The position numbers and the translations under genes are program-made. From contig VGFP01000002.1 of the NCBI GenBank assembly GCA_016868855.1, positions 287,210 through 351,209 of the forward strand: a stretch of 64,000 bases of DNA, given 5' to 3'. Origin of the DNA: Bacteroidota bacterium (GTDB lineage: Bacteria; Bacteroidota; Bacteroidia; Chitinophagales; Chitinophagaceae). The notes beneath the pieces were generated by a model. That model worked only from the letters and a program-made list of their open reading frames with translations, was not told the DNA's origin and did no database searches. This document shows positions 45,130 to 46,452 of this stretch, in pieces; positions within the stretch are counted from its first letter, which is position 1; each line of letters opens with the position of its first letter.

Positions 45130-45158
45130 GAGTCCCGGGATAACCCGGGACTCTTTTT
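45130..45158 (+). terminator. Intrinsic terminator after fusA
   Basis: gagtcccgg-gataa-cccgggactc followed by ttttt. Confidence 0.8.
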
Positions 45159-45201: not shown

Positions 45202-45233
45202 TTTGCGTGGAATGCTTTGAATTCTTACCTTTG
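45202..45233 (+). promoter_or_regulatory. Promoter of the S10 operon (rpsJ)
   Basis: TTTG (45202-45205) - 20 nt - TACCTTTG (45226-45233). Confidence 0.75.
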
Positions 45234-45263
45234 CATCCCCATTAAAAAATGGGCTATTAACAT

Positions 45264-45569
45264 ATGTCACAGCGTATCAGGATAAAATTGCAGTCATACG
45301 ACCATAACTTGGTTGATAAATCGGCGGAGAAGATTGTTAAAACTGTGCGCAGCACGGGTGCCGTTATAACTGGTCCAATTCCCTTGCCTACGCAAAAGAG
45401 AATTTTCACAGTGTTGAAATCTCCGCATGTGAACAAGAAAGCGCGTGAGCAGTTCCAATTGAGCACACACAAGCGTTTGCTTGATATTTATACTTCTTCA
45501 TCCCGCACGGTAGATGCACTGAGCAAGTTGGATCTTCCAAGTGGTGTGGATGTTGAAATCAAGGCCTGA
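45264..45569 (+). CDS. rpsJ: 30S ribosomal protein S10
   Basis: [23 protein letters not shown]...GPIPLPT...[11 protein letters not shown]. Confidence 0.98.
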
Positions 45570-45579
45570 TAAGGGTCAG

Positions 45580-45834
45580 TCCCGATCCGTCGGGGCACAG
45601 TTCTTTACTTTCATCTCCCAATTGATTGCCGTTGGCATGAAAAAAAGGAGCGCTGAAGAAAATTTTATCTCTCTGATGAGAGTTGAAATATAAACAAGCC
45701 CTTCGAGGTTTGTTTACTGTCGGTACTTCCCACCAGCAGATGGTAAAAGGGGAAAAGGTCGACAGCAAACTGGGATTGAAGCGAGGTCATACCTCTCTGT
45801 CCATTTAACCGAAAAGGGGCAAAAATTAAAAACA
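45580..45834 (+). ncRNA. Candidate structured ribosomal-protein leader / cis-regulatory RNA between rpsJ and rplC
   Basis: 265-bp gap with no plausible gene in a cluster where spacers are mostly under 80 bp; several hairpins by eye: tcccga/tcggg(g), taaacaagcc/ggtttgttta (45691-45716), nested ctgtcg/cgacag + ttccc/gggaa + acca/tggt (45717-45765), gaggt/acctc (45783-45795). Confidence 0.5.
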
Positions 45835-46452
45835 ATGAAAGGAATTATCGGTAAGAAAATTGGGATGACCAGCATCTTCGGTCCCGATGGCAAGCAAACT
45901 GCTTGCACAGTCATCGAAGCAGGTCCTTGTGTAGTAACACAGGTGAAGACAAAGGACAACGATGGCTATACTGCGCTTCAATTGGCATTCGGCGAGAAAG
46001 TTGAAAAAAGAGCCAATGCTTCAGAAAAAGGACATTTCTCCAAGTCCTCTTCTACTCCAAAAAGTTTTGTAAAAGAATTCAGGGATTACAGCCTCGAGAA
46101 AAATCTCGGCGAATCCATCACATGCGACATTTTCGCTGAAGGTGAAAACGTTGATGTTGTTGGAACTACCAAAGGTAAAGGTTTTCAGGGTGTTGTAAAG
46201 CGTCATGGTTTCAGTGGTGTCGGTGAGCAATCACACGGACAGCACGATCGCCAGCGTGCACCAGGTTCGATAGGTAACTCATCTGATGCGTCAAGGGTAT
46301 TTAAAGGAATGCGCATGGCGGGTCGCATGGGCAATGACCGTGTTAAAGTAAAAGGATTGAAAGTTGTGAAGATTTTCCCAGAGAAAAACTTCATCCTTGT
46401 GAGTGGGTCAGTACCCGGCCACAACGGTTCAATCGTATATATTCAGAAATAA
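45835..46452 (+). CDS. rplC: 50S ribosomal protein L3
   Basis: [14 protein letters not shown]...[16 protein letters not shown]...[16 protein letters not shown]. Confidence 0.98.

Follow-up and report, generated by a model that had tools for sequence, protein, structure and literature searches.

The 265-nt spacer between rpsJ and rplC in the S10 operon of a Chitinophagaceae genome is a real structured RNA. In the reading that we prefer, to which we give about an even chance of being right, it would serve as a cis-regulatory leader for the translation of rplC, in which one hairpin (P1) copies the base of helix H96 of the 23S rRNA for feedback by ribosomal protein L3 and a second module switches between two folds. 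The S10 operon is the largest ribosomal-protein operon and its control in Bacteroidota has hardly been described; the leader would provide a concrete control element with a candidate ligand. All positions given below refer to the window, that is, the whole 64,000-nt stretch of DNA that was analysed, and all features described in it lie on the plus strand.

The rpsJ gene (ribosomal protein S10; 45264–45569), recognized as an ORF with homologues, ends at 45569, and rplC (ribosomal protein L3; 45835–46452), the first gene after the leader and directly followed by rplD, starts at 45835. As pointed out in the initial annotation, the 265 nt in between hold no plausible ribosomal-protein ORF; only short mechanical ORFs were found there. 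The subsequent gaps of the operon measure 14–30 nt. A hidden ORF was rejected: some congeners have an ATG (ATGAACAAG), but the window reads ATAAAC at this place, so the start is not conserved. Upstream, a strong predicted terminator after fusA (45130–45153), with a 10-bp stem followed by TTTTTATTTA, is the boundary between the str operon and rpsJ, and a promoter-like site (45203–45234; TTG, about 20 nt, TAccTTTGC) was recognized from sequence by its likeness to what we take to be the Bacteroidota consensus. With this terminator and this promoter-like site before it, rpsJ is probably the opening gene of the transcription unit, and the gene order would make the spacer RNA part of the rplC mRNA. 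Just after rpsJ, a variable 5′ hairpin (P0; 45579–45596) occurs in many relatives with differing sequence; in the window it is a weak stem with the tail ACAGTTCTTT. The AGUUCUU box (45599–45606) is conserved family-wide, and in most of the family, P1-only spacers included, it sits between the variable hairpin and P1.

The spacer has a minimum free energy of −81.7, compared with −65.9 ± 4.9 in dinucleotide shuffles (z −3.25; none of 200 shuffles as good). In its consensus structure, the P1 hairpin (45610–45657) consists of an outer helix (45610–45613/45654–45657) and an inner helix (45615–45618/45647–45650), separated in the window by an internal loop of U 45614 opposite CGC 45651–45653, and it is followed by P2 (45669–45682), a hairpin of variable but covarying sequence. 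P3 (45689–45716) forms in state A only, with its strand 45698–45715 reused in state B; P4 (45717–45765) combines a helix (45717–45723/45759–45765), an internal loop (UAC 45724–45726/AAGG 45755–45758), an inner helix (45727–45730/45751–45754) and a variable tip. After a conserved AAAC (45767–45770), P5 (45773–45802) pairs GGAU 45773–45776 with GUCC 45799–45802 and carries a UGA bulge (45777–45779) and a variable tip (45780–45798), and the tail (45807–45820), paired in state B, stops 14 nt short of the rplC AUG. The stems named in the initial annotation (45691–45700/45707–45716, CTGTCG/CGACAG at 45717–45722/45760–45765 and GAGGT-CAT-ACCTC at 45783–45795) are all present, but its list was incomplete, as it missed P1, P2 and the alternative pairing of 45698–45715 with 45767–45770 and 45807–45820. 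A pairing of the 5′ CUCCCA with UGGGA (45771–45775) was also considered and dropped, since no covariation was seen by eye.

Comparative evidence for this structure came from 82 sequences, in which standard pairs filled 97% of the pair cells, compared with 35–52% when the partners were slid, and 23 pairs had changed on both sides. The model-fitted alignment contained 372 double-changed cells versus 105 in shuffles, and a MAFFT alignment, made with no model fitting, agreed (123 versus 39). When substitutions were redistributed along the inferred tree as a phylogeny-aware null, eight pairs of the structure (four in P1, three in P2 and one in P4) and one further P5 pair reached E ≤ 0.05, and no significant pair contradicted the structure. 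By both the fold energy and the covariation, the latter lying far above the shuffled and slid controls, the complementary segments exceed chance.

No Rfam 15 family matched the spacer at its gathering score, with one lone sub-threshold match inside it (E 2.9), and known riboswitch families gave no match; P1-only relatives likewise had no Rfam match at P1. An exact Rfam match, which in the eyes of the initial annotation would have made the spacer known rather than new, was thus not found. A housekeeping RNA in disguise was rejected, with RNase P RNA located elsewhere in the genome and no Rfam match in the spacer. Two DUF805b RNA matches, one of them just below the gathering score, were seen near rplC in another Chitinophagaceae genome (L134:2964-2999 and L134:3320-3354, minus strand).

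The module formed by P3, P4, P5 and the tail was found in one family only. In the genus of the window, all 27 genomes where rpsJ and rplC could both be located (window included) have a spacer of 252–363 nt, and these spacers share long near-identical blocks. When 299 genomes of the order were scanned with a covariance model built on the 3′ core (R1), 60 Chitinophagaceae genomes gave one copy each and nothing credible turned up outside this family; all 57 family matches that were fetched are located between rpsJ and rplC. Three R1 matches outside the family (E 0.006–0.09) lie away from rpsJ and rplC and were taken as chance. A pattern scan of named genomes found the core in Hydrotalea, Sediminibacterium, Niabella, Flavihumibacter, Arachidicoccus, Terrimonas and other Chitinophagaceae, with 76 of 80 loci between rpsJ and rplC and the other four cut by contig ends. 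The full-length model (R2), used class-wide, returned the Chitinophagaceae alone, bar one short partial match of 34 nt (E 0.0099) that was marginal and taken as chance. Family-wide conservation, covariation and a fixed position thus give good support to the earlier proposal of a conserved control element that follows rpsJ and precedes rplC, which the terminator and the promoter-like site before rpsJ further back. Of the outcomes that the initial annotation had named as refuting its proposal, neither a lack of conservation or covariation among relatives nor a folding energy at the random level was seen. The spacer could alternatively be a functionless lineage-specific insertion that folds by chance, as might be thought from the spacers of merely 2–80 nt at this junction in many other families of the order; this is hardly credible and already contradicted by the covariation beyond phylogeny, the conserved loops, the single copy at a single site and the P1 copies in other orders described below. 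One genome of family f19 (G054, locus L040) has a 309-nt rpsJ–rplC spacer with neither P1 nor core; its promoter-like TAAATTTGC looks like an internal promoter.

When the 3′ part is folded alone, a different structure is obtained, with P3 opened. In this state B, GCCCUU 45698–45703 pairs with AGGGGC 45815–45820, GGUU 45707–45710 with AACC 45807–45810, and GUUU 45712–45715 with the conserved AAAC, which is predicted to close a three-way junction whose other arms are P4 and P5. Pairing in state B accounts for the conservation of AAAC, AACC and the tail, which were left unpaired in the first model, and the single P3 pair with two-sided changes involves base 45711, which is mostly free in state B. 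The energy gap between the two folds is 0.8 ± 1.9 kcal/mol over 84 sequences and stays within 4 kcal/mol in 79; the alternative fold forms in 83, with P3–tail pairs averaging 10.3, compared with 4.2 for shuffled tails. Own tails out-pair swapped tails (0 of 5,000 permutations, with relatedness left in and some lineages deviating). The closing helix of the junction ends 14–18 nt, mostly 14–16 nt, before the AUG. In L062, L093 and others, within the last 25 nt before rplC, a GCGG/CCGC hairpin can also arise from the tail, about 7 nt ahead of the AUG; this occurs in many genera other than that of the window and competes with the three-way junction, which makes the on/off polarity of the switch uncertain.

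Two mutually exclusive folds, one of them affecting the start region, are therefore predicted, which is what characterizes a riboswitch-type element. The P3–P5 module could accordingly be imagined to sense a small molecule or an ion in the manner of a riboswitch, with P1 as a separate ribosomal-protein site. We regard this as unlikely: the near-invariant internal loops of P3–P5, the three-way junction and the two near-equal folds by the start codon speak for it, but no known riboswitch family was matched, the module occurs in a single gene context, and a protein ligand would look alike. To our knowledge, ribosomal-protein genes are also rarely under metabolite control.

P1 and P3–P5 are separable. 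The 20 Chitinophagaceae genomes with no R1 match have shorter or different spacers, and a motif scan found P1 in 18 of them and in 96 of 104 spacers of the family overall; conversely, the congeners L026 and L029 have kept the core with no recognizable P1. Elsewhere in the order, P1 stands alone in family f9 (six of seven by scan, with 0.008 expected from shuffles) and in families f4, f16 and f17 (f17 by eye), and outside the order it was found just before rplC in three families of Bacteroidia (f23, f44 and f50). Folded by itself, P1 of the window shows no gain in stability over its shuffles (z −0.68); the support for P1 is comparative. The distance from a solitary P1 to the AUG is mostly 9–17 nt, with 5–6 nt in f4 and 107 nt in genus g26 as exceptions; where the two modules occur together, P1 and the rplC AUG are some 175 nt or more apart, which counts against our main reading. 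In g26 (L142–L144), P1 is followed by a degenerate P5-like remnant (GGGATTG...TTGTCCC), as if the second module were decaying. In f17 (L030, L272), no rpsJ occurs within reach upstream of rplC and a promoter-like TActTTTGC lies about 60 nt before P1, so that P1 looks like a plain 5′ leader there.

These positions also bear on whether the spacer is a regulatory element at all. An RNA that does not regulate but serves the processing or the stability of the transcript, or a stable small RNA excised from the operon mRNA, would fit how very strongly the sequence is conserved, and likewise the AGUUCUU box, itself conserved and with no assigned role. We consider it very unlikely, as the element is always directly before rplC and nowhere else, its distance to the AUG is fixed, and P1 is kept ahead of rplC in f17 too, a family with no rpsJ found upstream. 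A conserved structured RNA before ribosomal-protein genes, as found here, is the general mark of a ribosomal-protein leader; that the leader would change the expression of the genes after it is suggested by the fixed distance and the two folds.

The candidate ligand emerges from a likeness of P1 to rRNA. In 81 aligned copies, the internal loop of P1 has one base (mostly U) opposite C-K-C, with an invariant A-U closing pair; the middle base of C-K-C is G in 41 copies and U in 39. The other closing pair is G-C in most copies from outside the Chitinophagaceae. With the strands exchanged, the strict motif has a single match in the 16S and 23S rRNA of the family, at 23S positions 2678–2722, reading CGUAC-CGC-UGGU/GCUA-U-GUACG; the internal-loop match is short, and the chance expectation is 0.016 for the strict form and 0.37 for the loose form. 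We place this site in domain VI, close to the L3 site, and take it to be the base of helix H96. With few exceptions, Bacteroidia 23S genes have CGC or CUC there, the same G/U variation as in P1, whereas E. coli 23S has CAC opposite A and a different closing pair. Both forms of the middle base occur, and those of P1 and H96 disagree within one genome, which speaks against our main reading.

The binding site of L4 lies in domain I of the 23S rRNA, where the P1 loop has no match. This contrast favours L3 over L4, and it suggests that P1 is a mimic of the H96 base that would be read by L3, the likeliest candidate ligand of P1. L3 is tied to domain VI in general (PMC9508819, PMC9687910); higher uL3 occupancy is reported to strengthen domain VI "except H96" (PMC9687910), which counts against the reading of H96 as the L3-bound model. 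For the P3–P5 core, rRNA mimicry was rejected: with the filters off, scanning 23S and 16S by covariance model gave chance local matches only, and the conserved core boxes had nothing longer than about nine bases in common with rRNA. The P1 loop in domain VI is thus the sole similarity of the leader to 23S found by sequence or model.

Of the two ligands that the initial annotation had named, L4 or L3, the latter is therefore favoured, and L4 is not supported. A leader that binds L4, either at P1 or at P3–P5, as the E. coli S10 leader moved past rpsJ, seems fairly unlikely to us. In E. coli, regulation of the S10 operon by L4 is established (PMC10931766), rplD comes right after rplC, and the P3–P5 module would leave room for L4 as its ligand; against this, the likeness of P1 is to domain VI and not to domain I, no terminator of the S10-leader type lies near rplC, and the core resembles neither 23S nor 16S.

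Under the preferred reading, with L3 as the ligand of P1, the leader would control the translation of rplC, and coupling would extend this control to L3-L4-L23-L2 and onward, apart from rpsJ. Surplus L3, the product of the following gene, would bind the H96-like P1 as feedback. In most Chitinophagaceae, the module of P3, P4, P5 and the tail is placed between P1 and rplC and may toggle between the P3 hairpin and the three-way junction. The junction helix and the solitary P1 end at a near-equal distance from the AUG, so that a stabilized helix just before the AUG would, most likely, block initiation in both designs. Bacteroidota do not use Shine-Dalgarno pairing (PMC10931766), and a stable helix before the start would thus most plausibly lower initiation. 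The attenuator considered in the initial annotation is not supported, in that no terminator-like stem with a U-tract was found between the core and rplC, which makes translational control likelier than attenuation. We infer both the polarity and the ligands of the leader from sequence comparison.

A more tentative possibility is that the whole works as a two-input gate of the S10 operon, in which an old L3-sensing, H96-like hairpin of Bacteroidia was joined in the Chitinophagaceae by a bistable junction sensor for a second ligand. If so, it would possibly be the first L3 leader described, and the leader may show how a simple rRNA-mimicking leader gains a second switching module.

A ribosomal-protein leader is a known kind of element, and this member appears to be new. 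A survey of novel ribosomal-protein leaders (PMC7247131) lists neither a Bacteroidota leader ahead of rplC nor L3 as a ligand, a literature search for a Chitinophagaceae leader or an rplC leader found nothing, and the cited literature on S10-operon control names L4 and not L3 as a regulator. The E. coli S10 leader is similar in being a structured leader in the same operon with feedback by an operon product and proposed rRNA mimicry; however, it lies before rpsJ whereas the present one lies after it, it acts on both transcription and translation via a terminator that the present leader lacks, and P1 is like domain VI and not domain I. A candidate L4 leader of Archaeoglobi (PMC7247131) is likewise located before rplC, in rplC-rplD-rplW-rplB, but it is archaeal and tentative; we set it apart by its description, not by its structure. 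The leaders for L13 and S4 in Bacteroidia and Flavobacteria (PMC7247131) come from the same phylum and were predicted by covariation as well; they belong to other operons and ligands, and the S4 ones are said to be simple hairpins with no rRNA mimicry. In rRNA-mimicking leaders such as those of L20 and S15, a short motif imitates the site that the ligand binds on the rRNA, as we propose for P1; the sites mimicked there are others, and P1 differs in having the strands of the H96 base exchanged and a ligand that is a candidate only.
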